DNA from: Burkholderiaceae bacterium
GTDB taxonomy: Bacteria; Pseudomonadota; Gammaproteobacteria; Burkholderiales; Burkholderiaceae_C
Length of the DNA stretch: 45,997 nucleotides
Assembly (NCBI GenBank): GCA_014879745.1
Contig: JACSRM010000227.1
Location: forward strand, 1-45,997
Direction: 5' to 3'
The position numbers and the translations under genes were made by a program. Shown here one piece after another: positions 5,349-40,642 of this stretch. The notes beneath the pieces are model-generated. The model ran no database searches. It was given only the letters and a program-made list of their open reading frames with translations, and had not been told where the DNA came from. Position 1 is the first letter of the stretch. Each line of letters begins with the position of its first letter.

Positions 5349-6797
5349 TCAACGCGGAACGAAATAGGTCGACTTCTCGCGCGCGGTCGTCACGACGCCG
5401 TCGTCGTCGGTCGAGACCTCGAGCACGATCGGGCTGGCGCGACCGCGGTAGGCCTCGGCCGCCTCGGGCGCGAGCGCGAGGCGCAAGACGAGCGTGCCGA
5501 TGCCCGTCGGCGGCACGTCGACCGCGGCCGGCGAGGTGATGCGCAACCCCGGCAGGCCGGACGCCTCGACGCGGTAGCGCCGCGCCTGCTCGGTGCCGTT
5601 GGCGATGTGCAGCGTATAGACGTTCTCGATCTGCCCGCCTTCGACGACGCGCGCGAGCGACCCCCGATCCTTGATGATGTCGACCGTGAAGCCCTTGCGC
5701 AGCGACAGGCTCGCGACGAAGGCGATGCTCGCCGCGATCAGCACCGCGCCGTAGATCAGCACCCGCGGGCGCAGCACGCGGCGCAGCATCTCGTTGCGCG
5801 TCAGGTGGCTGGCAACGCCGCGCTCGGTCGCGTAGCGGATCAGCCCCGGCGGGTAGTTCATGCGGCCCATCACGTCGTCGCAGACGTCGACGCAGGCGGC
5901 GCAGCCTATGCATTCGTTCTGCAGGCCGTTGCGGATATCGATGCCGGTCGGGCAGACCTGCACGCAAAGGCCGCAGTCGACGCAGTCGCCGAGGCCCAAT
6001 GCCTTCGGATCGGCCTTGCGCGAGCGCGAACCGCGCGCCTCGCCGCGCTGTGTGTCGTAGGCGATGACGAGCGAATCCTTGTCGATCAGCGCGCTCTGGA
6101 AGCGCGCATACGGGCACATGTACTTGCACACCTGCTCGCGCATGTAGCCGGCGTTGCCGTAGGTCGCGAAGGCGTAGAAGAGGATCCAGAACACTTCCCA
6201 CGGCGACAGCGCGAACGACGCGAGGCTCGCGCCGAGGGTGCGGATCGGCGTGAAATAGCCGACGAAGGTAAAGCCGGTGACGAGCCCGATCGAGATCCAC
6301 GCAAGCTGCTTGGCGCCCTTGCGGGCGAGCTTCTCGGCGCCCCACGGCGCAGCGTCGAGCCGGATGCGGGCGACGCGGTCGCCCTCGGTGTGGCGCTCGA
6401 CCCAGAGGAAGATCTCGGTATAGACCGTCTGCGGACACGAATAGCCGCACCACAGGCGGCCGGCGACGGCGGTGAAGAAGAACAGCGCGAGTGCCGAGAT
6501 GATGAGCAGCGCCGCAAGATAGATCAGATCCTGCGGCTGCAGCACGAGGCCGAAGACGAAGAAGCGGCGCTGCGAGATATCGAACAGCATTGCCTGCCGT
6601 CCGTTCCATTGCAGCCACGGCAGGCCGTAGAAGATGCCCTGCGTGAGCCACACCATCGTCCAGCGCCAGCGCGCGAACCAGCCGTGGACGGCGCGCGGAT
6701 AGACCTTCGCCTGCTTCTCGTACATCGAGACCACGAAGTCCGCGTCCGCCGCGGCGGCGACCGGGCGAATCGGGATCACTGGGCGAGGCTCGGACAT
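5349..6797 (-). CDS. ccoG: Cytochrome c oxidase accessory protein CcoG/FixG
   Basis: A 482-residue membrane Fe-S protein with several transmembrane segments (roughly 45-65, 88-112, 165-185, 195-215 and 325-345). CGYSCP (Cys117/121) and CKYMC (Cys224/228) lie near the membrane, then two [4Fe-4S] motifs: CVDCGLCVQVCP (272-282) and CIGCAACVDVC (296-306). The C-terminal ~130 residues form the Ig-like FixG_C domain. CcoG reduces Cu(II) for cbb3-oxidase CuB assembly in studied species. No ccoNOQP operon is in this window; instead it follows a DUF2249 gene (66 bp gap) behind an NsrR-like site, which suggests NO-responsive expression. Confidence 0.95.
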   Translation of the reverse strand: MSEPRPVIPIRPVAAAADADFVVSMYEKQAKVYPRAVHGWFARWRWTMVWLTQGIFYGLPWLQWNGRQAMLFDISQRRFFVFGLVLQPQDLIYLAALLIISALALFFFTAVAGRLWCGYSCPQTVYTEIFLWVERHTEGDRVARIRLDAAPWGAEKLARKGAKQLAWISIGLVTGFTFVGYFTPIRTLGASLASFALSPWEVFWILFYAFATYGNAGYMREQVCKYMCPYARFQSALIDKDSLVIAYDTQRGEARGSRSRKADPKALGLGDCVDCGLCVQVCPTGIDIRNGLQNECIGCAACVDVCDDVMGRMNYPPGLIRYATERGVASHLTRNEMLRRVLRPRVLIYGAVLIAASIAFVASLSLRKGFTVDIIKDRGSLARVVEGGQIENVYTLHIANGTEQARRYRVEASGLPGLRITSPAAVDVPPTGIGTLVLRLALAPEAAEAYRGRASPIVLEVSTDDDGVVTTAREKSTYFVPR

Positions 6798-6863: not shown

Positions 6864-7121
6864 TCACTTGACGACGAAGTCGATCACGATCGCGCCCGGG
6901 TCGCGCTGGCGGTATTCGATGCTCACGCGCTCGCCGTAGTGCGTCATGATCTGGTCGAGCAGCGGCAGCGGATCGTGGTCGTTGACGAAGCGCATCGTCT
7001 CGCCCGGGTTGAGCGCATCGAGCGCGCCGAAGATCGCCGCATGGCGAAAGCGCTTCGCGATGCCGCGCGCGTCGAAGGGGTAGATCGCGGTCGGCGAGAG
7101 GTGCAGGTGGGCTTGCGACAT
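6864..7121 (-). CDS. DUF2249 domain protein (first copy)
   Basis: An 85-residue single-domain DUF2249 protein. The conserved core is DARGIAKRFRHAAIFGALDALNPGETMRFVNDHDPLPLLDQI, with the typical VNDHDP motif at about residues 45-50, followed by a basic strand and the C-terminal GAIVIDFVV. These TusA-like alpha/beta proteins cluster with hemerythrins, NnrS and denitrification genes; the biochemical role is not settled. Start chosen at 7121. It heads the operon with ccoG. Its upstream region holds an NsrR-like palindrome and a sigma70-like promoter. A second family member lies at 27437-27733. Confidence 0.85.
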   Translation of the reverse strand: MSQAHLHLSPTAIYPFDARGIAKRFRHAAIFGALDALNPGETMRFVNDHDPLPLLDQIMTHYGERVSIEYRQRDPGAIVIDFVVK

Positions 7122-7143: not shown

Positions 7144-7166
7144 AAGATGGATGCGGAATGCACCTA
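7144..7166 (-). promoter_or_regulatory. nsrR box: NsrR-like binding site upstream of DUF2249-ccoG
   Basis: The palindrome AAGATGGATGC-G-GAATGCACCTA matches the published NsrR consensus (AAGATGCATTT-N-AAATGCATCTT) at 16-18 of 22 informative positions, with the AAGATG half intact. It covers the predicted transcription start downstream of the -10 at 7166-7171, a repressing position. An nsrR gene is in this window at 25482-25979. Confidence 0.68.
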
Positions 7167-7194
7167 TTCTACGGAGTGCGCCGGCCTAAAGCAA
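7166..7194 (-). promoter_or_regulatory. Sigma70-like promoter of the DUF2249-ccoG operon
   Basis: On the minus strand TTGCTT (7194-7189) and TAGAAT (7171-7166) are separated by exactly 17 bp. The start point would be near 7159, inside the NsrR-like box, with a ~38-nt leader to the DUF2249 ATG. Confidence 0.55.
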
Positions 7195-7262
7195 TATCCA
7201 CCATACATCTTCACAACGGGGCGTACCGGCCGATGGCCTCGCCCCGGCGCCGGCGTCGGGCC

Positions 7263-26029: not shown

Positions 26030-26059
26030 TTAACATGCGTGCATTCTACATCTTATAAT
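26030..26059 (+). promoter_or_regulatory. Sigma70-like promoter of nnrS
   Basis: TTAACA (26030-26035) and TATAAT (26054-26059) are 18 bp apart, a near-consensus promoter with start near 26066 and a ~42-nt leader to the nnrS ATG. The spacer is occupied by the NsrR-like box. Confidence 0.7.
26032..26054. promoter_or_regulatory. nsrR box: NsrR-like binding site between nsrR and nnrS
   Basis: AACATGCGTGC-A-TTCTACATCTT matches the NsrR consensus best in its outer arms (AACATG and ACATCTT); about 14 of 22 positions agree. It lies exactly between the -35 and -10 boxes of nnrS and 53 bp upstream of nsrR, consistent with repression of nnrS and autoregulation. Confidence 0.7.
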
Positions 26060-26107: not shown

Positions 26108-27331
26108 ATGAGCCAAGAACGACCCGCCGTGCCGATTGCCCCGCCCTCGCCTGCGCCCGCCGCAGCGCAGGCCGGACAGCCGCGCGGCCTGCCCTTGCTG
26201 CGCCTCGGCTTTCGACCGTTCTATCTCGGCGCGGCGGCCTTCGCCTGCCTCTCGGTGCCGCTGTGGCTGGCCGTCTTCTTCGGGCACCTGACGCTGGATG
26301 CGCAGATCGCACCCCTCCTGTGGCACGCCCACGAGATGCTGTTCGGCTTCGCCGCCGCCGTCATCATCGGCTTCCTGCTGACGGCCGGCAAGGCGTGGAC
26401 GGGGCTGGCGACGCCGCGCGGCGCCTTTCTCGGCGCGCTCGCCGGCCTCTGGCTCGCGGCGCGCATCGCGGCGCTGGCCGCCCCGTATGCCGTCTATGCG
26501 GTGCTCGACGTGCTGCTGCTGCCGGTGGTGGCCGCCGTGCTGCTGGACGTGCTGCTGCGCTCGGGCAACAAGCGCAACCTGCCGCTGGCCGGGATCCTCG
26601 CCCTGCTCGCGCTCGCCAATCTGTGCTTTCATCTTGCCGTGCTCGGCATCATCGGCGTGCAGCCGATGCACGCGCTGTTTGCCGCGCTCGGCCTGATCGT
26701 GATGATCGAATGCGTGATGGCCGGCCGCGTGCTGCCGTTCTTCACGATGAGCGCGACGCCCGGCCTGAAGCTCGACGAGAAGCCCTGGGTCGTGAAGGCG
26801 ACGCTCGCAACGAGCGCGCTCGCGCTCGCGCTGTGGGTGTTCGCGCCGGCCGGATGGATCGTCGCGCTCGCCTTCGTGCTCGCCGCCGCCTGCCACCTGC
26901 TGCGCCAGTGGAGCTGGCAGCCGTGGGTCACGCGCGGCAGGCCGATCCTGTGGATCCTGCATGCCGCCTATCTGTGGCTGCCGATCGGCTTCGTGCTGCT
27001 CGCCGCGGCGCAGCCCGGCTGGGTCGCCGAATCGATCGGCGTGCACGCGCTCGCGGTCGGCGCAACCGGCGGGCTGATCATCGGCATGATCACGCGCACC
27101 GCGCGTGGCCACACCGGCCGGCCGCTGAAGGTCAACCGCGTCGAGGTCAGCGCCTACGGCCTGGTGCTCGCTGCCGCGGTGGCGCGCGTGCTGCTGCCGA
27201 TCGTCGCGCCGCAGTGGCTCGTCCAGTCGCTGTGGCTCGCGGCGGTCGCGTGGAGCCTCGCTTTCCTGCTCTACCTCGTCGTCTATGGGCCGTGGCTGAT
27301 GCGCACCCGGCTCGACGGCAAGGACGGCTGA
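26108..27331 (+). CDS. nnrS: NnrS family membrane protein
   Basis: A 407-residue, ~12-TM heme/copper protein of the NnrS family: LRLGFRPFYLGAAAFA near the start, LLWHAHEMLFGFAAAVIIGFLLTAGKAWTG (about 71-100, His ligands), GRVLPFFTMSATPGLK and the C-terminal MITRTARGHTGRPL. NnrS protects against NO by limiting formation of NO-iron complexes in Vibrio and is a common NsrR/denitrification-regulon member. The ATG at 26108 (MSQERPAV) is chosen because the promoter and NsrR-like box (26030-26059) lie upstream; the earlier in-frame codon at 25982 would start before the promoter. Confidence 0.93.
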   Translation: MSQERPAVPIAPPSPAPAAAQAGQPRGLPLLRLGFRPFYLGAAAFACLSVPLWLAVFFGHLTLDAQIAPLLWHAHEMLFGFAAAVIIGFLLTAGKAWTGLATPRGAFLGALAGLWLAARIAALAAPYAVYAVLDVLLLPVVAAVLLDVLLRSGNKRNLPLAGILALLALANLCFHLAVLGIIGVQPMHALFAALGLIVMIECVMAGRVLPFFTMSATPGLKLDEKPWVVKATLATSALALALWVFAPAGWIVALAFVLAAACHLLRQWSWQPWVTRGRPILWILHAAYLWLPIGFVLLAAAQPGWVAESIGVHALAVGATGGLIIGMITRTARGHTGRPLKVNRVEVSAYGLVLAAAVARVLLPIVAPQWLVQSLWLAAVAWSLAFLLYLVVYGPWLMRTRLDGKDG

Positions 27332-27778: not shown

Positions 27779-28324
27779 TCACAGGCCGAGCGTCAGGCGC
27801 GCGGCCTCCGACATGTGGTAGCGCGTCCACGGCGGGTCGAACACCATCTCGACATTGCACTCGGCGACGCGCGGCAGCGCCAGCACTTTCTCGTAGACCT
27901 CGTTGGCGATCGCCTCGCCCATGCCGCAGCCGGGCGCGGTGAGCGTCATCTTGATCGACACCATGACCCGCTCGTCGTCGATCGGAATCACGTCGCAGAC
28001 GTAGATCAGCCCGAGCTCGACGATATTGACCGGGATCTCCGGGTCGTAGCAGGTCTTGAGCGTTTCCCAGACGAGGCCTTTCACCTCGTCGAGCTTGACG
28101 TCGGCGTGCGCCTCGACGGCGACCGGCAGCGGCTTGCCGATCGCGTCGGCGTCGCGGCCGGCGAGCCGCACCAGCTGACCCTCGACGTGCAGCGTGAAAT
28201 TGCTGCCGAGCGCCTGCGTGATCTCGGCATGTGTGCCGGCCGGCAGATCGAGCGGCGTACCGTCGGGCACGCGCTCGACCTGCACCGGCCGGTTGGTGAC
28301 GACGGGTTCGCGCCAGGATTTCAT
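27779..28324 (-). CDS. sufT: Fe-S assembly protein SufT (DUF59)
   Basis: A 181-residue protein with the DUF59/MIP18 domain in its C-terminal half: VWETLKTCYDPEIPVNIVELGLIYVCDV, MTLTAPGCGMGEAIANEVYEKVLAL and the EMVFDPPWTRYHMSEAARLTLGL end. The N-terminal ~70 residues are SufT-specific. SufT proteins assist Fe-S maturation, notably under high demand. The start overlaps the sufU stop (ATGA). It is the last gene of sufBCDSUT. Confidence 0.92.
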   Translation of the reverse strand: MKSWREPVVTNRPVQVERVPDGTPLDLPAGTHAEITQALGSNFTLHVEGQLVRLAGRDADAIGKPLPVAVEAHADVKLDEVKGLVWETLKTCYDPEIPVNIVELGLIYVCDVIPIDDERVMVSIKMTLTAPGCGMGEAIANEVYEKVLALPRVAECNVEMVFDPPWTRYHMSEAARLTLGL

Positions 28325-28809
28325 GCTGCCTCGGTCTCGGTGCTGACCGCGCCGCTGTCGGGCGGATCGTTCAATGCATGCATCAATGCGTGCCAGCCGA
28401 GCATCGCGCACTTGATGCGGCTCGGGTAGCGGCGCACGCCGGCCAGGCTCACGAGCTTGCCCAGATGCGCCTCCTCGGGGTCGAGCTGGCCGGTCAGGAC
28501 GGCACGAAAGCGCTGCTGCAACTCCTGCGCGGCGGCGACATCGGCGCCACGCACCGCCTCCGTCATCATCGACGCCGAGGCGATGCAGATCGCACAGCCG
28601 TGGCCGCTGAAGCGGATATCGCCGACCTTGCCCTCCTTCAGATCGAGCTCGACCTTCAGCGTGTCGCCGCACGCCGGGTTGTGGCCGCGCGCTTCGTGGG
28701 TCGGCGCCGCAAGGCTGCCGAAATTACGCGGCGCGCGCTTGTGCTCGACGACGATCTCCTGGTAGAGATCGTTCTCGGCGGCCATCGCCGGGAGCTGGGC
28801 TGGATTCAT
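28321..28809 (-). CDS. sufU: SufU-like sulfur-transfer/scaffold protein
   Basis: A 162-residue IscU/SufU protein. Likely Zn/sulfur ligands are Cys47 and Asp49 (NPACGD), Cys72 (GHGCAICIAS) and Cys134 (RIKCAMLGW), the standard SufU set. SufU accepts persulfide sulfur from SufS and delivers it to SufBCD. Its ATG overlaps the sufS stop and its stop overlaps the sufT start (both 4 bp). Confidence 0.93.
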   Translation of the reverse strand: MNPAQLPAMAAENDLYQEIVVEHKRAPRNFGSLAAPTHEARGHNPACGDTLKVELDLKEGKVGDIRFSGHGCAICIASASMMTEAVRGADVAAAQELQQRFRAVLTGQLDPEEAHLGKLVSLAGVRRYPSRIKCAMLGWHALMHALNDPPDSGAVSTETEAA

Positions 28810-30047
28810 CGCAGCACCTCGAGCGCACGCGCGACGCCGGCGGCGAGCCGTTCGACGTCGTCATGCGTGTTGTAGACCGCGAACGACGCCCGCGTCGTCG
28901 GGCCGAGGCCGAGGTGATCGATCAACGGCTGCGCGCAGTGATGCCCGGTGCGCACCGCGATGCCCCGTTCGTCGAGCAAGGTGCCGAGGTCGTGCGGATG
29001 GACGTCGCCGGTGACGAAGGCGGCGATCGCCGACGTCTCCGCGTGCGGCGCGATCACCGTGACGCCGCCGAGCGCGGCGAGGCTTTTCACCGCGTGCGCG
29101 CGCAGCGCCGTCACGTGCGCGTCGACCGCAGCGCGGCCGAGGCCGTCGATGAAGTCCGCCGCAGCCGCCATGCCGACCGCGCCGCCGACGTTGGGCGTGC
29201 CGCCTTCGAGCCGCGCCGGCAGGCCGGCGAACTCGGCGCGCTCGAGCGTCACCCACTCGACCATGTCGCCGCCCAGGCGCAGCGGCACCAGCTTGTCGAG
29301 CGCGCTGCGCCGCCCGGCGAGCGCGCCGATCCCCATCGGGCCGTACATCTTGTGGCCGGAAAAGGCGACGAAATCGCATTCGAGCGCCGAGATATCGAGC
29401 GCCTCGTGGCTCACGGCCTGCGCCGCATCGAGCACGGTCAGTGCACCGGCCTGCTTCGCCAGTGCGAGCATCGCCTCGAACGGCGGCCGCTCGCCGGTCG
29501 CGTTGGCGCAGGCGGTGACGGCGAAGACGCGCGTGCGCGAACCGAGCAGCCGCTCGAGGGCGTCGATGTGCAGACGGCCCTCGGCGTCGGGCATCAGGAC
29601 GCGCAGCGTCGCGCCGCAGCGCCTGGCGGCAAGCTGCCACGGCACGAGATTGGCGTGGTGTTCGAGGCCGCTGACGATGATCTCGTCGCCCGTCTTCAGC
29701 ACCGCCGGCCCGTGACCCGCGAGCGACAGGCCCTGGGCGATGGTATTCAACGCCTCGGTTGTCCCGGAGGTGAAGACGAGTTCGTGCTGCGCACCGGCGC
29801 CGATATAGGCCTTGAGGCGTTCGCGCGCGGCCTCGAAATCGTCCGTCGCGCGCTGGCTCAGCGTATGCACGCCGCGGTGGATATTGGCGCGGTCGCGCGA
29901 CTCGAACTCGCGCATCGCCGCCATCACCGCGAGCGGCATCTGCGTCGTCGCCGCATTGTCGAGATAGACGAGCGGCGCGCCGTTGATGCTCTGCGCGAGC
30001 ACCGGAAAGCTGTCGGTGAGAGCGGCAAGCGGCAGACGTTCACCCAT
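28806..30047 (-). CDS. sufS: Cysteine desulfurase SufS
   Basis: A 413-residue PLP enzyme. YLDNAATTQMP near the N-terminus, GTTEALNTIAQGL, EHHANLVPWQ, the PLP-binding DAAQAVSH and Lys233 (SGHKMYGP), and the persulfide-forming Cys371 (RTGHHCAQPL) are all present. It removes sulfur from L-cysteine for SufU. The start at 30047 overlaps sufD by 8 bp and is preceded by AGGCTCCCC-like sequence; longer frames upstream lie inside sufD. Confidence 0.95.
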   Translation of the reverse strand: MGERLPLAALTDSFPVLAQSINGAPLVYLDNAATTQMPLAVMAAMREFESRDRANIHRGVHTLSQRATDDFEAARERLKAYIGAGAQHELVFTSGTTEALNTIAQGLSLAGHGPAVLKTGDEIIVSGLEHHANLVPWQLAARRCGATLRVLMPDAEGRLHIDALERLLGSRTRVFAVTACANATGERPPFEAMLALAKQAGALTVLDAAQAVSHEALDISALECDFVAFSGHKMYGPMGIGALAGRRSALDKLVPLRLGGDMVEWVTLERAEFAGLPARLEGGTPNVGGAVGMAAAADFIDGLGRAAVDAHVTALRAHAVKSLAALGGVTVIAPHAETSAIAAFVTGDVHPHDLGTLLDERGIAVRTGHHCAQPLIDHLGLGPTTRASFAVYNTHDDVERLAAGVARALEVLR

Positions 30048-31350
30048 GGGGAGCCTCCTGCACCCGCTGCGGCGCCGCCTGGCGCGCCGATGCCGCCAGA
30101 TGGTCGGCCACCGCGCGCTCGAGCAGCGCCTCGACGCCGAGCGACTCCAGCAGCTCGGGGTCGTCCAGGCCGCGTGCGAGAACGGCATGCGCCATGCCAT
30201 TCACGATCATCGCCCGCGCGTCGCGCTCGTCGATGCCGCGCTGGCGGGCGTAGAAGATCGCATCCTCGGGCATCGCGCCCCAGGTCGCGCCGTGCGCGGC
30301 CTGCACCTTGTCGTGATGAATCTCGAGGTGCGGACGCAGCACGAGCTTGGGTTGCCCGCCGGTCGGGATGCCGACCAATTTCTGGCGCAGCGCCGCCTCG
30401 TCGGCGCCGGGGGCGATCCGGCTGTGGGCATTGACGACGATGCGCGCGCCGGCATCGGCCAGCGCGAGCGCTTCGACGCTGCTTTGCGATGCCTCGCCGA
30501 CGTGTGCGACGCGCACCTGCTGTTCGAGCGCGGCGTGGGCGGCGAACAGCACCGCGGCGCTGCGCGCCTCGGCCTTCGCGCCATGCAGCTCGACGACCGT
30601 GCGCTGCAGGTGATAGCTGCTGCCCGAGGCGATCATCGCCTGCTCGTAGCGCGCCGCGGCGGCAAGCCGGGCGTCGATATGGTGCACGATGCGATCGCCG
30701 GCGGCCGGTGCGACGACGCGCAGATGCTGCAGCGCCGCGCCCTCCTCGAGCCGCACGTGGACCTGCATGTTCTGCACCAGGTCGCGCTCGCAGGCACTGC
30801 CCTGGTCGTCGCTTGCCGCGATGCGCTCGTGCGATTCGACGAGCACGCACTGCACGCCGGCCGCGACCTCGATCACGAGCAGCGGCGCCTCGACCGCGCT
30901 GCGCGGCTGGCGGCGCAACTGGAGCCAGACCGTCTCGCGATGCCGCGCCGCGCCCACATCGCCGCCGATGCGCACGCGCAGCCCCTGGCGGCACAGCGCG
31001 CGATGCGCCCAGGCGAGCGGTGCCGCGTCGTCGGCATCGACGCCGTCGCCGGGTTCGGCCAGACCGGCGAACAGCTCGGCGCGCTGCTCCGGATCGGCGG
31101 CATCGAGCCAGCGCGCCTCGACGCGCCCCGGCGGCTTGTGGCCGAGCGGATGCAGCGTCCAGCCGGCGCCGGCCAGCGGCGAGGCGTCGCACGCCTGCTC
31201 GCAGTTGGAATCGGCTTCGCCGAGCCAGACCTCGGCCGCGGGCGGCGGCAGGTGGCGGAAATCCTCCGCGTTGCGCGCGATCCAGCCCAGCCTCGCGATC
31301 CGCTCGCGGGCAAAAAGTGCATCGGCGCGTGCGCTGTCCATCGTCGTCAT
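30040..31350 (-). CDS. sufD: SufD subunit of the SufBCD Fe-S assembly complex
   Basis: A 436-residue SufB/SufD-family protein. The central beta-helix core (GVQCVLVESHERIAASDDQGSACERDLVQNMQVHVRLEEGAALQHLRV) and the C-terminal PHLEIHHDKVQAAHGATWGAMPEDAIFYARQRGIDERDARAMIVNGMAHAVL segment with the conserved KVQAAHG motif identify it. SufD forms a heterodimer with SufB and binds SufC. It starts 29 bp after sufC and overlaps sufS. Confidence 0.93.
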   Translation of the reverse strand: MTTMDSARADALFARERIARLGWIARNAEDFRHLPPPAAEVWLGEADSNCEQACDASPLAGAGWTLHPLGHKPPGRVEARWLDAADPEQRAELFAGLAEPGDGVDADDAAPLAWAHRALCRQGLRVRIGGDVGAARHRETVWLQLRRQPRSAVEAPLLVIEVAAGVQCVLVESHERIAASDDQGSACERDLVQNMQVHVRLEEGAALQHLRVVAPAAGDRIVHHIDARLAAAARYEQAMIASGSSYHLQRTVVELHGAKAEARSAAVLFAAHAALEQQVRVAHVGEASQSSVEALALADAGARIVVNAHSRIAPGADEAALRQKLVGIPTGGQPKLVLRPHLEIHHDKVQAAHGATWGAMPEDAIFYARQRGIDERDARAMIVNGMAHAVLARGLDDPELLESLGVEALLERAVADHLAASARQAAPQRVQEAPHG

Positions 31351-31379: not shown

Positions 31380-32150
31380 TCAGGCCACCGCCGGTTCGCC
31401 CGCACGCGCGAAGCCGGTGCGCGCGATATCGTGCGCCAGCGAGAGGCCGCCGGTCTCGGCGATGCATCCCTCGTGCAGGCGCAGCACGGCATCGGGCGCG
31501 AGCGACTCGATCATCTGCAGATAGTGCGAGACGACGACGAATGCCGTGCCCTTCGCGCGCAGTTCCTGGACCAGCGCGACGACGGCGCGCACGCCGTCGA
31601 TATCCATGCCGGAGTCGATCTCGTCGAGCACCGCCAGCTTGGGCGCGAGCAGCGCCATCTGCATCAGCTCGTTGCGCTTGCGCTCGCCGCCGGAGAAGCC
31701 ATCGTTCACCGGCCGGTTGAGCATCGCCTCCGGCAGCCCGAGGCGCTTGGCGGCATCGCGCGCGCCGCCGAGGAAGTCGAATGCATCGAGCGCCGTCTCG
31801 CCGCGCGACTCGCGCACCGCGTTGACGGCACTGCGGATGAAGAGGTTGTTCTTCACCCCCGGGATATCGGGCGGCGACTGGAACGACAGGAAGAAGCCGG
31901 CGCGGGCGCGTTCCTGTGCGTTCATCGCGAGCAGGTCCTTGCCGTCGAAACGCACCTCGCCGCCCATCACGCGGTAGCGCGGATGGCCGGCGAGCGTCAG
32001 GCCGAGCGTGCTCTTGCCGCTGCCGTTGGCGCCCATCAGCACGAACAGCGCGCCGGCCGGCACGTCCAGCGTGACCGACTTCAGCACGGTGCGCTCGCCG
32101 ACATCGACGCGCAGGTCGCGCACGTGCAGCAAGGGATCGGTGGTCTTCAT
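31380..32150 (-). CDS. sufC: SufC ATPase
   Basis: A 256-residue ABC-type ATPase without membrane partners. Walker A GANGSGKST (about 39-47), Q-loop SFQSPPDIPGVKN, signature FSGGERKRNELMQ, Walker B LAVLDEIDSGMDID and H-loop SHYLQMI are all canonical for SufC. It drives conformational change in SufBD. It lies 32 bp after sufB. Confidence 0.96.
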   Translation of the reverse strand: MKTTDPLLHVRDLRVDVGERTVLKSVTLDVPAGALFVLMGANGSGKSTLGLTLAGHPRYRVMGGEVRFDGKDLLAMNAQERARAGFFLSFQSPPDIPGVKNNLFIRSAVNAVRESRGETALDAFDFLGGARDAAKRLGLPEAMLNRPVNDGFSGGERKRNELMQMALLAPKLAVLDEIDSGMDIDGVRAVVALVQELRAKGTAFVVVSHYLQMIESLAPDAVLRLHEGCIAETGGLSLAHDIARTGFARAGEPAVA

Positions 32151-32182: not shown

Positions 32183-33637
<1,455 letters not shown>

Positions 33638-33739: not shown

Positions 33740-33766
33740 TTTATAGATGCAGATGGTATGCATCTT
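33740..33766 (-). promoter_or_regulatory. nsrR box: NsrR-like site over the sufB promoter
   Basis: The palindrome TAGATGCAGAT-G-GTATGCATCTT (33744-33766) agrees with the NsrR consensus at 17-18 of 22 positions, with the ATGCATCTT arm perfect. On the minus strand TATAAA (33745-33740) is a good -10, and the box covers the spacer and the -35 position, which itself is weak. The predicted leader to sufB is ~96 nt. No IscR-type site is evident. Confidence 0.68.
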
Positions 33767-33817
33767 TGGCCGCATCACCAAACCGGCCGGCAAAGACCGC
33801 AACTTCCGCGGGGCAAT

Positions 33818-34093: not shown

Positions 34094-36028
34094 TCAGGCG
34101 CTGGTCGATGCCGCGGACGGCCGGGTGACGGCCGACGGCACGAAGGCGTCGGTGAAGCAAAAGCCCTCGCCCAGCCCCTGCTCGATGAAGGCCGGCACCG
34201 CCGCCTCGACCATCTTGACCGAGCCGCAGACGTAGACCTCGTGCTGGCGCAAGTCGGGGAAGTCGGCCAGCATCGCCTCGTGGACGAGCCCGGTGCGCCC
34301 GCTCCAATGGCCCTGCGGATCCGGCTCCGAGAGGACCGGAACGAAGCGGAAGCACGGGTTCTCGCGCTGCCACTGCTCGGCAAGCGCGATCGCATACAGA
34401 TCGTCCTGCTTGCGAACACCCCAGTAGAGCCACATCGGCCGCGTGAGGCCGCGCGCGAAGGCATCCTCGACGATGCTCTTGATCGGCGCGAAGCCGGTCG
34501 CACCGGCAACGAACAGGATCGGGTGCGCGCTGTCGCTGAGCGTGAAGTGGCCGAGCGGCCCCTCGATGCGCAGCGTGTCGCCGACCTTCATCGACGTGAA
34601 GACGGCGCCGGTGAAGCGCCCGCCCGGGATGCGCCGCACGTGCAGTTCGATCTGGCCTTGCTGCTGCGGCGGGTTGGCGAACGAGAACGCGCGCCGTTGC
34701 CCGTCTTCGAGGATGATGTTGATGTACTGGCCGGCCTTGAACGGCAGCGTCGCGCCCTGCGGGAGCGAGAGCATGAGCCGGATCACCTCGGGCGCGAGGC
34801 GCTCCATGCTCTCGACGCGGACATCGAACTCGTGGATCGCGGCGAGTGCGGCGCGCGCGTCGGCCTCGACCTCGATGACGACGTCGGAGAGCGCCGTCGC
34901 GCAGCACATCAAGGCCTGGCCGCGGGCACGCGCGGCCTCGGGCAACGCACTCGGCTGGTAGGGCCCGAGATCGACGTTGCCGTGCAGCACGGTGCACAGG
35001 CACACGCCGCAGCCGCCGTTGCGGCACTCGTACGGCAGTTCGAGGCCATTGCGCAACCCGGCGTCGAGCAGCGTCTCGCCGCTGCGCACCGGCAGCGGAT
35101 CGCTCGTGCCGCTCGCGTGGTGCACCTCGAGATGAAAGTCCTGCGCGCGCTTGCGGCCGAACTTCGGCGGCAGCCACGGCAGCAGCACGAGCACGCCGGT
35201 GGCGCCGACGAGCAGCGCCCAGACCTGGCCGATTGGCCAGACCGAGACGAGCGGCAGCACGGCGAGGTAGAACCAGTCGAACTGCAGCGTCGTCACCGCC
35301 TCGCCGAGGTTGGCCGCGCCGCCCTGGCTCAGCACCGGACGCAGCGCCGACAGCAGCAGCAGCGTGATGATCACGCTTGTCATGATCGGCCGCGGCGGGT
35401 TGGTGCGCGCCTTCGGCACGCGCTGGACGTGGACCCATTGCACGAGCAGCAGCACGAGCGAGATGCCGATGTGCATGAACGCGAGCAGCGAGAAGAAGCG
35501 GTCGTTGACGCTGTCGGGGTAGATGAAGTTGCGCATCAGCGTGCCGCCGAAGCCGGGCAACCAGTCGAACCACTCGAAGGCAGCGACGATCGTGTACTGC
35601 GCGAGGTGGTCCCACGGCAGCATGAAGCCGGTGATGCCCGCCGAGTAGACGAGCCAGATCAGCACCACGCCGGTCACCCACGAAAACCAGCGGAAACCGC
35701 GGAAGTGGTTGAACGCGAAGTGGCGCACCATGTGGATCAGCATCGTGATGACGAAGCCGTCCGAGGCGTAGCGGTGGATGCTGCGCAGCACGCCGCCGGC
35801 GAACCACTGCCCGTGCGTCAGGCTCTCGACCGAGGTATAGGCGTCGGGGACGCCGGTCTCGAAGAACGCATACAGGTAGAGCCCGGTTGCGGCGACGACC
35901 CAGAACAGGAAGAAGCTGATCGCGCCGAGGTGGTAGAGCGGATTGAGCCGGTCGCCGAAGGCGGCGTTGAAGACCGCCTCGACCCGCATGAACAGCCATT
36001 GCAGGCCGCGTTGCAGAGCTTTGAGCAT
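34094..36028 (-). CDS. Cytochrome b / [2Fe-2S] ferredoxin / FAD-NAD(P) reductase fusion
   Basis: A 644-residue three-part membrane protein. Residues 1-205 are a bc1-type cytochrome b N-terminal domain with two bis-His heme sites (His85/His186 and His99/His200, x13 spacing in helices B and D) and the quinol-site-like GFMLPW. Further TMs follow to about 288. Residues 300-390 are a plant-type [2Fe-2S] domain (Cys335, 340, 343 and 375/376). Residues 400-632 are a ferredoxin-reductase module: RAFSFANPP for FAD, VAGATGFAPI and VCGSVKM for NAD(P). This would connect quinone, hemes b and NAD(P)H in one chain; direction is unknown. Start 36028 fits the domain; an upstream ATG would lie inside repeat B. 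Elements B and C bracket the gene. Confidence 0.85.
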   Translation of the reverse strand: MLKALQRGLQWLFMRVEAVFNAAFGDRLNPLYHLGAISFFLFWVVAATGLYLYAFFETGVPDAYTSVESLTHGQWFAGGVLRSIHRYASDGFVITMLIHMVRHFAFNHFRGFRWFSWVTGVVLIWLVYSAGITGFMLPWDHLAQYTIVAAFEWFDWLPGFGGTLMRNFIYPDSVNDRFFSLLAFMHIGISLVLLLVQWVHVQRVPKARTNPPRPIMTSVIITLLLLSALRPVLSQGGAANLGEAVTTLQFDWFYLAVLPLVSVWPIGQVWALLVGATGVLVLLPWLPPKFGRKRAQDFHLEVHHASGTSDPLPVRSGETLLDAGLRNGLELPYECRNGGCGVCLCTVLHGNVDLGPYQPSALPEAARARGQALMCCATALSDVVIEVEADARAALAAIHEFDVRVESMERLAPEVIRLMLSLPQGATLPFKAGQYINIILEDGQRRAFSFANPPQQQGQIELHVRRIPGGRFTGAVFTSMKVGDTLRIEGPLGHFTLSDSAHPILFVAGATGFAPIKSIVEDAFARGLTRPMWLYWGVRKQDDLYAIALAEQWQRENPCFRFVPVLSEPDPQGHWSGRTGLVHEAMLADFPDLRQHEVYVCGSVKMVEAAVPAFIEQGLGEGFCFTDAFVPSAVTRPSAASTSA

Positions 36029-36034
36029 CAGTAA

Positions 36035-36273
36035 CCCCGGATCCGGCAGTTGGACGCGCCCGAGCGGGCCGCCCTCGGGTGCGATAGCAAGGCGCAAACC
36101 GCAGCGATAGCACCCGCTATCGCGAGGATGTGCAACGCCGCGAGCGGACTCGAGGGCGGCTCGATCGGGTGCGCAGCGCTGTCACCCGGGCGATGGGCGT
36201 GGTCGTGGGAACGAATGACGACAGGCATGGACATTTCCGGCGAGAGCGCAGCGGTCAGCTGCCGGACCCGGGG
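36035..36273 (+). repeat. 239-bp structured palindromic element (copy B)
   Basis: Ends CCCCGGATCCGGCAGTTG (from 36035) and CAGCTGCCGGACCCGGGG (to 36273) pair at 18 of 20 positions. The core at 36086-36141 is GCAAGGCGCAAACCGCAGC, hairpin GATAGC-ACCC-GCTATC, GCGAGGATGTGCAACGCCGC. A further hairpin (GGGTG/CACCC) follows. The right end overlaps the last codons and stop of the upstream heme-copper-like gene. Orientation is opposite to copy C, so the pair flanks the 34094-36028 gene. Confidence 0.82.
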
Positions 36274-37685
36274 TCGGTCCTGCGCCGCAGCGCGCCGATG
36301 ACGACGACGACGAACAGCAGGCCGCCGACGATGGCGATCAGGCCGCCCAGCCCCATCAGCCCCATGCCGGCGATCTCGGCGCTGCTGCGCAGCACCTGCT
36401 CGGTACCGGCGACCTTGCGCTGCACGCCGTAGCCGCCCGACCAGACGAGGCCGACGATGTGCAGCAGCTGCCCGAAGCCGTAGAGCGCGGGCTGCCAGGT
36501 CGCGAGCCGGCCCTGCGGCGTGCCGTAACCCATGCGCGGCAGCAGGTGGTAGACGAGCCCCATCAGCGCGAGCGTGACGCCGACGATGCAGCCGTGGTAG
36601 TGCGCCGGGATGCGCACGTTGCTGCCGCTGATGAAGATGCCGATCACGCCGCCGGCGCCGAACAGCAGGACCGAGGCCACCAGCGCCGAGCGCAGCGGCC
36701 GCGCCTGCAGCGTCGCCGCCGGTGCGCCGGCAAGCGCGGCGACGACGGCGAGCGCGATCGGCACGATCGCGACCCCGCCGCCCAGGCGCATCGCCCAGGT
36801 CAGCGCGTCGCGGTGCTCGACCGACGCGATATCGTGCGCGAGGTAGGCATACGGCGTGACGAAGACGCTGACGAGCGCGAGCATGAACATCAGCAACGTG
36901 ACGCGCGGGCTGAGCGCGACGCGCGCGCCCGACGCCCCGGCGAGCCAGAGCCAGGCGACGAGCATCAGCAGCGTCCACGTGAACTGCAGCGCATGGCCGC
37001 CGCCCCAGAACAGGATCTCGTAGTACGCGCGGCCCTCGAGCGTGAGCGGCAGCACGGCGAACGACCAGCCGAAGGCGAGCAGCGCGACGGCGGTCGCGAC
37101 GACGCTCGCGTTCAGCCCGAAGCGCAGCGCGCCGCCGCCGTCGAAGCTCGCGCCCAGGCGCGGCGCGAGCCACAGCGAGCGCAGCACGAGCAGCGCGGTG
37201 CCGACCGCGAACAGCAGCAGCCCGCCGAGGAAGGCCGCGCCGTCGAGCACCGGGATGTAGTTGGCCATCACCGCCTCGCCGCTGCCGACGAAGGGCGCCA
37301 GCGACATCGCGAGCGCGCCGGCCGCGGCCAGGCCGAGCGCGGTCCACGCCAGACCGAGCGCGCGCGGCGCGCCGATCAGGCTCCACAGCAGGCCGGCGAT
37401 GGCAATGAACCAGACGAGGACCGAAAGATCGACGTGGACGACGAGCGCGACGCGAAAGAAGTCGGCGCTCGGCAGCAGCTTGTTGACCCCCGGCGTTCGC
37501 GCCAGCACGAGCAGGACCGAGAACACGCCGGACAGGACGAGCGCACCGAGACCGAGTGCGAGCCAGCCGCGCGCCAGGTCGCGGCGGGCGTCGGCCGGCA
37601 CCGCGAGCGTGTATTCGGTGTCGTGGCGCGCCTGCGGCAGCGCGGCTGCGCGCCCGGCGGGCACGGGGGCGAGGTGCGCGCTCAT
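36255..37685 (-). CDS. Heme-copper oxidase-like subunit I lacking apparent CuB His pair
   Basis: A 476-residue, ~12-TM protein of the heme-copper oxidase subunit I superfamily. Low-spin heme ligands His84 (VVHVDLSVLVWF) and His364, and high-spin heme ligand His362 (PAHYHGCIVG), are in place. Helix VI has His231 (GGGHALQF) but no Tyr four residues on. In helix VII, where CuB enzymes have an adjacent His-His pair after TP, this protein reads TPYAYLAHD, so Leu-Ala replaces the pair (His284 and His291 are nearby). By eye it most resembles cbb3/NorB-like sequences. It may have lost CuB and act in heme electron transfer or other chemistry. The start overlaps the preceding stop (ATGA). The last codons lie in repeat B. 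Confidence 0.78.
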   Translation of the reverse strand: MSAHLAPVPAGRAAALPQARHDTEYTLAVPADARRDLARGWLALGLGALVLSGVFSVLLVLARTPGVNKLLPSADFFRVALVVHVDLSVLVWFIAIAGLLWSLIGAPRALGLAWTALGLAAAGALAMSLAPFVGSGEAVMANYIPVLDGAAFLGGLLLFAVGTALLVLRSLWLAPRLGASFDGGGALRFGLNASVVATAVALLAFGWSFAVLPLTLEGRAYYEILFWGGGHALQFTWTLLMLVAWLWLAGASGARVALSPRVTLLMFMLALVSVFVTPYAYLAHDIASVEHRDALTWAMRLGGGVAIVPIALAVVAALAGAPAATLQARPLRSALVASVLLFGAGGVIGIFISGSNVRIPAHYHGCIVGVTLALMGLVYHLLPRMGYGTPQGRLATWQPALYGFGQLLHIVGLVWSGGYGVQRKVAGTEQVLRSSAEIAGMGLMGLGGLIAIVGGLLFVVVVIGALRRRTDPGSGS

Positions 37686-38200
37686 CGGAAGGTGATCCCG
37701 CCGCGCTGCGGATCGAAGTCGATCACCAGGATCTGCGCCGGCGCGAGCGTGACCGTCTTCTCGCTCTGGTAGTCGAAGCCGTCCTTGCGCGCATTGTCGT
37801 TGAGCCGCACCGCGAGCTGATGCGTGCCGGCCGGCACCGTCAGGCGCTGGTAGACCGACGAGGCGCCGTCGCGCGACAGGCCCGAGGGCGGCGCGACGTG
37901 GCGGATCGCCGGCTTGCCGTCGATATCGACCTCGACGACGACCGGCGAGCGCTCGCGCCCGCACTTCATCGGCGTGCGCATGTTGGGCGGCAGCTTGGCA
38001 AGCTCCTCCGGCGTGAGCTTGCGGCACTCGTCGACGCGCTGCGCCGCATGCGTGAAGCTGAGCTTGATCAAGGCCTCGTCGTCGGCCAGATGGCGGTACG
38101 TCGGCCAATGCGAGAAGACGCCGATGATGAGCGCGAAGACCCCATACAGCAGGGCCTGGCCGACCCAGGAGAAGCGCTTGCGCGCTGGAGTTTCATCCAT
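37682..38200 (-). CDS. Membrane-anchored protein of unknown function in the oxidase cluster
   Basis: A 172-residue protein I cannot assign. One N-terminal transmembrane segment (about 13-30, WVGQALLYGVFALIIGVFS) anchors a periplasmic domain of ~140 residues. It contains two Cys (58 and 80, ECRKLTPEELAKLPPNMRTPMKC) that could form a disulfide or bind metal, then a beta-sandwich-like region (VVVEVDIDGKPAIRHVAPPSG...YQRLTVPAGTHQLAVRLNDNARKDGFDYQSEKTVTLAPAQILVIDF). Start 38200 overlaps the upstream stop by 8 bp (ATGGATGA); 38215 is an alternative. Overlaps on both sides indicate a fixed stoichiometric partner of the neighbouring membrane proteins. Confidence 0.75.
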   Translation of the reverse strand: MDETPARKRFSWVGQALLYGVFALIIGVFSHWPTYRHLADDEALIKLSFTHAAQRVDECRKLTPEELAKLPPNMRTPMKCGRERSPVVVEVDIDGKPAIRHVAPPSGLSRDGASSVYQRLTVPAGTHQLAVRLNDNARKDGFDYQSEKTVTLAPAQILVIDFDPQRGGITFR

Positions 38201-39740
38201 ACCGAAGTTTCTCATGTGAAGGCCCCGCGGCGGCCGATACCCGCAGTCCGAGTACGGCAAGCGCCGCCTCGACGGCGGCCTCGTCGCCGGCGTCGGCCCA
38301 GACCGTTGCCACCCGTTCGGCCGGCACCGAACGGCGCAGATGCGGCTCGCGCAGACCGAGCAGGCGTTCGCGCGTCCAGCGCTGACCGAGGCGGAAGGTG
38401 CAGCCGCCTTCGCTGCACCCGGTGACGAGCACGCCATCGGCGCCGCCGCGCAACGCATATTCGACGAACGAAGGCGGCAGCATGCCGGTGCAGATCAGGC
38501 TGAACGCGGCGACGCCGGCGCCGGCGAGCGATTCGACGCGCGCGCCGTGATCGCAGCCGATGACGACAAGCCTCGGTCGATCGTCCGGCATGCGTGCAAG
38601 CGCCGCTTCCACGCGCTCGCGCAGGTCGTTGATCGGCGACTGCGGCATGTCGATGCCGGTGACGAGCGCGGCGCCCTTGCGAAACGGCGTCGACGACGGG
38701 CAGGCGCCGACGCAGATGCCGCAGCTCGCGCACAGGTCGGCGTCGACCTGCGCCATCTGGCGCCCGATGCGTCCGTTCGGGTGCGTGACCATCGTGATCG
38801 CCGTATACGGGCAGTCCTCGAAGCAGCGCCGGCAGCCGTTGCAGTTGGCGGGGTCGACGACCGCCACCGGCGCCGCCGCAGGCTGTGGCAGGAAGGGCAG
38901 CGCGAAGAGCGCGATCAGCGTGCCGGCGAGGAGCAGCCACACCGCGCCCGCCGAAGTCGCGTAGACGAGCGGATGGATGAAGAGCAGCCACCAGTCGAGC
39001 GCGAGCGTCGCCGGCACGACCGAGAGGTCGGCCGGGCCCTGGCTGTGCACCGGCAGCACGAGCGCCACCGCGATGAGCGACGCCGTGACCCCGATCGCGA
39101 GCCGCAGCGGCGGAAAGGCCTCGGCACGCGCCAGACGCTGGATGTGAAACCACATCGCGAAGACGATGAAGAGCGCCACCCCGAGATGGACGAAGATGAA
39201 GAGCGAGAACAGCCGGTCGCCGACGCTTTCGACGCCGATGAAGTTGCGCGTCAGCGGCGAGCCGAAGATCGGCAGCCAGTCGAGGAATTCGGCGGTCGCG
39301 ATCGCCGAGAACTGGCCGAGCTTGTCCCAGTTCAGCCAGAAGCCGCCGATCGCGGAGGCGAATGCAAGCGGCAGCAGCGGCACGCCGGTCAGCCACGAGA
39401 AGCGGCGAACACCGCTGTAGCGGCCGAACAGCCATTCGCGCAGCAGATGCGCGAGCATCGTGACGACGAACGCATCGGCCGCATAGCGATGCAGGCTGCG
39501 CAGCCAGCCGCCGAGAAACCATTGCTCGCGTGAAAGTCCGTCGATCGAGACGTAGGCCCCGGTGGCCGAGGTATCGAGCACGGCATAGAGGTAGATGCCG
39601 GTCACCGCGAGCAGCCAGAAGCACAGGAAGGCGAGCGCGCCGAGGTGTCGCAGCGGGTTGAGCGCACCGCCGCCGACGACGCGGTCGAGTGCCGTCTCGG
39701 CGCGCTGCCAGAGCGCGCCGCAACGCTCGCGCGGATTCAT
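38193..39740 (-). CDS. Cytochrome b / 2x[4Fe-4S] / MvhD-type iron-sulfur fusion
   Basis: A 515-residue fusion. Residues 1-205 form a cytochrome b N-terminal domain with His84/His185 and His98/His199, at almost the same positions as in the 34094-36028 protein, so the two are paralogues there. More TMs reach about 285. Two [4Fe-4S] motifs follow: Cys300/303/306/310 (CNGCRRCFEDCP) and Cys337/340/343/347 (CASCGICVGACP). Residues 390-465 resemble MvhD/FlpD (hydrogenase/heterodisulfide-reductase delta subunit): Cys396, Cys417 (LICTGMLPPSFVEYAL), Cys442 and Cys447 (GCSEGGC). MvhD links flavin-based bifurcating enzymes to partners; here it is on a quinol-type cytochrome. It overlaps senC by 4 bp. Confidence 0.83.
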   Translation of the reverse strand: MNPRERCGALWQRAETALDRVVGGGALNPLRHLGALAFLCFWLLAVTGIYLYAVLDTSATGAYVSIDGLSREQWFLGGWLRSLHRYAADAFVVTMLAHLLREWLFGRYSGVRRFSWLTGVPLLPLAFASAIGGFWLNWDKLGQFSAIATAEFLDWLPIFGSPLTRNFIGVESVGDRLFSLFIFVHLGVALFIVFAMWFHIQRLARAEAFPPLRLAIGVTASLIAVALVLPVHSQGPADLSVVPATLALDWWLLFIHPLVYATSAGAVWLLLAGTLIALFALPFLPQPAAAPVAVVDPANCNGCRRCFEDCPYTAITMVTHPNGRIGRQMAQVDADLCASCGICVGACPSSTPFRKGAALVTGIDMPQSPINDLRERVEAALARMPDDRPRLVVIGCDHGARVESLAGAGVAAFSLICTGMLPPSFVEYALRGGADGVLVTGCSEGGCTFRLGQRWTRERLLGLREPHLRRSVPAERVATVWADAGDEAAVEAALAVLGLRVSAAAGPSHEKLRYG

Positions 39741-40642
39741 CCCTCGGCGCTCGCGCGCGGTGGAAACTGACCGTTGGCCTTCGGCTTCTGCGCCGCGCCT
39801 TGCGTGCGCCGCAGGCGGCGGCTGGCGCGCAATTCGCCGACGAAGAACCAGAGCATCGCGATGACGAAGGTCACGCCGCCGGCGATCTCGAACGCGAGCG
39901 CGTAGCTGACGCGATATTCGCCGGTCGCCGGATCGTAGATCGAGCACAGGATGCGCACGCGGTCGACGAGGTCGGCCAGGTCGAGCCGCTGCGGCAGCGG
40001 CTCGTTGCGCAGCAGCTGGCGGATCGGCTCGGCGAGTTCATCGGCGCTGAAGTCTTCACCGTACACCTGGCGGTAGATGCGGCCCTGGCCATCGACCACC
40101 GTGACCTGCAGCAGGTGGTCGAAGCCCGCCTGGGTTGGCGTGTAGGCGAATCCGAAGTCGCGCGTCAGCGCCTCGACGGCCGACGGATGCGGGCTCAGGA
40201 ACTCCCAATTCGCCGCGGTGATGCGTTGCTGCGCGGCAAACGCCTTCATCGACGCCGGCGAATCGGCCGGTAGATTGAAGCCGATGCTGACGATGTTGTA
40301 CTGCCGCGGGTCCATGCTGCGGCCCATGCCCTCGATCGCCGCGGCGATCGCGCGCGTGCTCGTCGGGCAGACCTGGAAGCAGCCGGTGTACATGAAATTC
40401 ACGAGCAGCGGCTTGCCGCGGTAGTCGGCGAGGCGCACCGGCTTGCCGGCGCGATCGAGCAGCGTGTAGTCGCCGATCTTGCTGCCGATCGCGCCCTGGC
40501 TGATGCGCAGCGCCTCGGCCGGGTCGAGCGTGGCGCGCGAGACGGGTGCCTCGTCGGCGACCGCGCTGGCGACGAGCCCGGCCAGACAGATTCCGAGCAG
40601 GGTGACCAAACCCCGGCAACTGCGGGCGGCAGGCTTGTGCAT
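39737..40642 (-). CDS. SCO1/SenC copper chaperone with C-terminal membrane anchor
   Basis: A 301-residue SCO-family protein. A signal sequence (about 1-29) precedes the thioredoxin-like domain with GDYTLLDRAGKPVRLADYRGKPLLVNFMYTGCFQVCP: copper-binding Cys88 and Cys92 (CxxxC) and distal His176 (GFDHLLQV). After the domain a linker leads to a second transmembrane segment (about 247-268) and a basic tail, an extension not usual in SCO proteins. SCO proteins load the CuA site of subunit II. A CuA-type subunit II is encoded at 43277-43816 in the same run. SenC also accompanies norSY in ammonia oxidisers. Confidence 0.9.
   Translation of the reverse strand: MHKPAARSCRGLVTLLGICLAGLVASAVADEAPVSRATLDPAEALRISQGAIGSKIGDYTLLDRAGKPVRLADYRGKPLLVNFMYTGCFQVCPTSTRAIAAAIEGMGRSMDPRQYNIVSIGFNLPADSPASMKAFAAQQRITAANWEFLSPHPSAVEALTRDFGFAYTPTQAGFDHLLQVTVVDGQGRIYRQVYGEDFSADELAEPIRQLLRNEPLPQRLDLADLVDRVRILCSIYDPATGEYRVSYALAFEIAGGVTFVIAMLWFFVGELRASRRLRRTQGAAQKPKANGQFPPRASAEG

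Follow-up and report, generated by a model that had tools for sequence, protein, structure and literature searches.

A candidate NsrR operator over the predicted suf promoter, conserved in a comamonad clade

The suf operon analysed here is preceded by a palindrome, which raises the question of which regulator binds at this site and which signal is sensed. The operon is found in a window of 45,997 nucleotides (contig JACSRM010000227.1, assembly GCA_014879745.1). Downstream of the palindrome, the gene order is sufB, sufC, sufD, sufS, a sufU-like gene and a sufT-like gene. The features of the window are listed in Table 1. The region upstream of suf (34094-39947) codes for unusual fusion proteins, which flank a COX1-like protein. 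One fusion combines cytochrome b with a 2Fe-2S/FAD/NAD reductase, the other combines cytochrome b with 4Fe-4S and FlpD domains.

Table 1. Coordinates of the features in the window
Feature	Position	Strand	Basis or remark
NsrR-type operator, core GATGCATACCATCTGCATC	33746..33764 (extended 33742-33768)	-	consensus match and clade conservation
Predicted -10 element TACCAT	33753..33758	-	within operator; conserved TA...T
Predicted -35 element TTGGTG	33776..33781	-	17 bp spacer; conserved TTG
sufB	32183..33637	-	Pfam SUFBD_core
sufC (start inferred)	31380..32150	-	Pfam ABC_tran
sufD (start inferred)	30040..31350	-	Pfam SUFBD_core
sufS, cysteine desulfurase (start inferred)	28806..30047	-	Pfam Aminotran_5
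sufU-like scaffold	28321..28809	-	Pfam NifU_N
sufT-like gene (start inferred)	27779..28324	-	Pfam FeS_assembly_P
nnrS	26108..27331	+	Pfam NnrS, 358 bits
NsrR-type box between nsrR and nnrS	26034..26052	-	up to 3 mismatches to extended consensus; kept in G003 and G004
nsrR, Rrf2 regulator with D8, R12, C91, C99, C105	25482..25979	-	Rrf2 search, structure comparison, ligands
Two NsrR-type boxes before DUF2249	7144..7211 (7146-7164, about 7191-7209)	-	both kept in G003 and G004
DUF2249	6864-7121		downstream of the two boxes
ccoG	5349-6797		behind DUF2249

On the minus strand, the core of the palindrome reads GATGCAT-ACCAT-CTGCATC. The sequence 109 bp ahead of the sufB ATG (33637) on this strand is CAAAGATGCATACCATCTGCATCTATA. 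The earlier note had placed a near-perfect NsrR palindrome at the sufB promoter, and it is indeed present there (33746-33764), agreeing with the published NsrR consensus gATGyAT-N5-ATrCATc (PMC1274295) at 13 of 14 positions. This score was not reached by any of 2000 dinucleotide shuffles of the suf upstream region (p 0.0005). A rigid 23-base pattern had no match in the window and was then replaced. With the pattern GATGCA-N7-TGCATC and no mismatches allowed, the suf box is the sole site in the window, for which base composition predicts 0.001. In the whole genome (4.5 Mb), only two such sites exist, including the suf box, and about 0.1 are expected by composition.

The conservation of the box was analysed among relatives. 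SufB searches yielded 80 loci from public genomes, while the family sample comprised 399 genomes (the family is Comamonadaceae, judging by the named relatives). A suf operon was found in 53 of these 399 genomes; 40 operons belong to the same SufB clade (at least 84% identity) and 13 are divergent. When the Neisseria-type operator variant (G4 to T, C16 to A; PMC1274295) is allowed, 36 of the 40 clade promoters score at least 12/14. Conservation upstream of sufB in relatives had been suggested as a check on the box, and a recognisable palindrome occurs in 39 of the 40 clade promoters, with three loci (L202, L203 and L206) scoring only 10-11. A score of 12/14 is reached neither by any of the 13 divergent operons in the family nor, under the strict consensus, by any of the 74 suf loci outside the clade. 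Eight representative loci, combined under the strict consensus, give p ~6e-10, which is optimistic, as are the other p-values, because the compared genomes are related by descent. When promoters are aligned on the box, conservation amounts to 1.30 bits per base within it but only 0.24 in the sequence around it. Positions 4 and 16 change symmetrically in both arms (G/C 23, T/A 9, G/A 4, A/T 1). The arms thus change in step, the pattern expected for a homodimer. At L206 (genome G174), about 81 bp before sufB, there is a third symmetric variant, GATACAT..ATGTACA, with both arms altered together.

The centre of the box (TANNAT) coincides with a predicted -10 element, whose core (TA...T) is shared at this position by 37 of the 39 aligned clade promoters. 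The TTG of a -35 element is found at a spacing of exactly 17 bp in 21 of the 39 promoters, against a background of 1.2%. In the window itself, the promoter (TTGGTG-17-TACCAT) is a weak match to the consensus and was missed by a generic promoter scan, which had no hits. The promoter call is based on conservation. The operator would overlie a sigma70-like -10 element, so that a bound repressor would cover it.

A candidate for this repressor is encoded in the same window. The Rrf2 gene, which we annotate as nsrR, is divergent to nnrS, with a box in the gap between them and a hemerythrin gene behind nsrR. The closest solved structure is that of NsrR from S. coelicolor. All four [4Fe-4S] ligands are kept (D8, C91, C99 and C105, corresponding to D8, C93, C99 and C105 in S. 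coelicolor NsrR). The protein scores 114.6 bits with the NCBIfam NsrR equivalog model NF008240, below the cut-off of 182. Its score with the RirA model is slightly higher (123.7 bits), and is below the RirA cut-off, too. Since the NCBIfam NsrR cut-off is missed, the name NsrR-type is based on the ligands, the neighbouring genes and the protein's own box. The genome codes for three Rrf2 proteins, the other two being an IscR and a cysteine-free protein. The statement of the earlier note that no iscR is seen holds for the window but not for the genome: on contig C188, iscR adjoins iscS, and its product scores above the IscR cut-off. With the SUF-specific Rrf2 model TIGR02944, the three proteins score 48-71, below its threshold of 110.65 bits.

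The whole genome contains only seven sites with up to three mismatches to the extended consensus. Six of them are in front of suf, nsrR/nnrS, DUF2249-ccoG (two sites), a gene for a DUF3079 protein and a membrane-protein gene. The seventh (contig C167) is found where a long reading frame ends and was discounted as a probable chance match. The related boxes reported previously at nsrR/nnrS and DUF2249-ccoG are real, with up to three mismatches to the extended consensus, and weaker than the suf box. The suf box itself recurs in both congeners (G003 and G004). Apart from suf, a connection to NO is indicated by nnrS and by the hemerythrin gene that follows nsrR. The DUF3079 protein is small and rich in cysteine. 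Its gene has a box in front of it in two congeners (L170 on G000:C71 and L165 on G003:C103), which suggests that the DUF3079 family is linked to NO or Fe-S stress. Besides the suf box, the one perfect site in the genome (L004/L164, G000:C278) is located 32 bp before a gene for an apparently polytopic membrane protein of 472 residues, which has no match in Pfam or NCBIfam. Contigs C113 and C100 of G004 carry sites that, judged by the sites themselves, resemble the membrane-protein and DUF3079 boxes.

We sorted the NsrR proteins of the clade by their recognition helix into types A, B and C. The window protein is of type A. A recognised type is encoded in 35 of the 40 clade genomes. Four genomes (G305, G350, G352 and G367) carry the box while none of the three types was recognised; three of these are 82-89% complete, and the fourth consists of 840 contigs and has one Rrf2 match outside the typing. 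In the two boxless clade members, G219 (a genome only 90% complete) and an uncultured Comamonas (L062, G064), an IscR-type protein is present, and NsrR types A, B and C were not found. At L049 and L147, the type B gene adjoins ytfE/RIC, which serves Fe-S repair, as well as a globin-like gene; of these two neighbours, L145 has the globin-like gene alone. Type B relatives also occur at L048 and L143. Two or more boxes are in the gap at type B loci. Among the culturable relatives, Acidovorax facilis carries both types A and B, and Comamonas badia carries type B. The operator core ends in C in 9 of 11 type A genomes, versus 1 of 22 type-B-only genomes (p 1e-5, by a hand count that is confounded by common descent). 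The operator form TTCAT..ATGAA accompanies types B and C, and never A. As the regulator type and the suf sequence are co-inherited, this covariation supports a link between NsrR and suf but does not prove it.

At 62 of the 74 suf loci outside the clade, the gene immediately before sufB codes for an Rrf2 protein. No Rrf2 gene was found before sufB at any clade locus examined. The simplest reading is that the adjacent suf regulator was replaced in the clade, which is monophyletic in the SufB tree (100/100). This reading is weakened by the low support for the root of the tree (60/83) and by the divergent suf operons in the family, 12 of 13 of which likewise have no Rrf2 gene within the 1.5 kb examined. 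A more extensive scenario, to which we give an even chance, is that suf of the comamonad clade lost its adjacent Rrf2 gene and came under the control of the NsrR lineage that each genome had kept (the one near nnrS, the one beside ytfE or the third type), with the operator changing alongside. SUF would then serve to repair NO damage beside ISC.

Comparison lends good support to the assignment of the suf box as an NsrR operator, with repression that NO would relieve. The earlier note had read the site in this way, and this reading gains support from the family-wide conservation, the small number of sites in the genome with their placement at NO-related loci, and the cluster ligands kept in the local regulator. 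As a joint explanation, we consider it highly probable that an NsrR operator covers the -10 element of suf and that repression is relieved by NO, with feedback from the cluster supply. A [4Fe-4S] NsrR homodimer, encoded 8 kb away, would bind the box and block RNA polymerase. Judging from known NsrR biochemistry, NO would attack the cluster, and NsrR would leave the DNA. SufBCDSU would then be expressed together with the sufT-like gene, and Fe-S clusters would be rebuilt. Once the cluster supply is restored, the repressor would re-form and the operon would be shut. This would be a negative feedback loop, since NsrR needs its own [4Fe-4S] cluster for DNA binding.

It is conceivable, though unlikely, that the box is bound by this NsrR-like protein but that its main signal is Fe-S or iron status instead of NO, as with RisR of Myxococcus. 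RisR, an Rrf2 repressor of isc and suf, is a closer relative of NsrR than of IscR (PMC9973013), the activity of E. coli NsrR is lost when the ISC supply drops (PMC13343975), and the slightly better RirA score of the window protein fits as well. However, the window protein retains Asp8, a ligand in the NO sensor, its gene is divergent to nnrS with the hemerythrin gene behind, and its type B relatives are encoded beside ytfE/RIC and globin genes. Control of suf through the box by the IscR encoded on contig C188, as by apo-IscR in E. coli, is very unlikely, even though IscR is present in the genome and regulates E. coli suf (PMC5411485). The two boxless clade members keep IscR, which argues against this assignment. 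The IscR type 1 consensus is ATASYYGACTRWWWYAGTCRRSTAT and that of type 2 is WWWWCCNYA-N7-TRNGGWWWW. Compared with type 1, the box has mismatches at 10 of 25 positions. The closest fit to type 2 in the region has 3 mismatches and is not the box but a site about 50 bp from it. IscR may nevertheless provide an additional, weaker input on suf.

That the palindrome arose by chance or serves a different regulator (NorR or FNR/DNR, for example) is extremely unlikely. Chance is ruled out by the conservation. Vibrio NorR2 sites also contain GATGT...ACATC (PMC1274295), but their spacing differs (GATGT-N7-ACATC), they occur in tandem, and NorR requires a sigma54 promoter, for which the best match here has 4 mismatches. 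For FNR/DNR, there is no TTGAT-N4-ATCAA in the box.

Control of suf by NsrR as such has already been reported: E. coli suf is described as repressed by [4Fe-4S] NsrR, with relief by nitrosative stress (reviewed in PMC8593673, citing Partridge et al. 2009), and the same relief is predicted here. The E. coli operon is sufABCDSE, whereas the clade has sufBCDSU-T, with a near-consensus operator over the -10 element that is conserved clade-wide and with no adjacent Rrf2 gene. The proteobacterial NsrR regulon (Rodionov et al. 2005, PMC1274295) shares the consensus, the target nnrS and the Neisseria-type variant, but suf is not mentioned in the text of that paper. SUF-adjacent Rrf2 regulators (TIGR02944-type and relatives) likewise exert Rrf2-family control of suf, but the regulator of the clade would act from a separate locus. 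RisR (Myxococcus xanthus) and SufR (Mycobacterium tuberculosis) are cluster-sensing suf repressors, too (PMC9973013). The former governs isc as well as suf and differs from IscR in its major-groove residues, while the latter is another dedicated suf regulator. To our knowledge, neither of them uses the operator found here. A literature search that covered few subscription papers and had RegPrecise outside its scope gave nothing relevant on NsrR and suf in Comamonadaceae or Acidovorax, nor any previous account of such family-wide wiring.

The clade offers natural operator-regulator pairs for the study of shifts in Rrf2 specificity, as well as a testable case of regulator replacement. If the proposed circuit is true, it suggests that the second cluster-assembly system of a widespread family answers to NO via an Fe-S repressor, which would constitute a simple loop of damage and repair.
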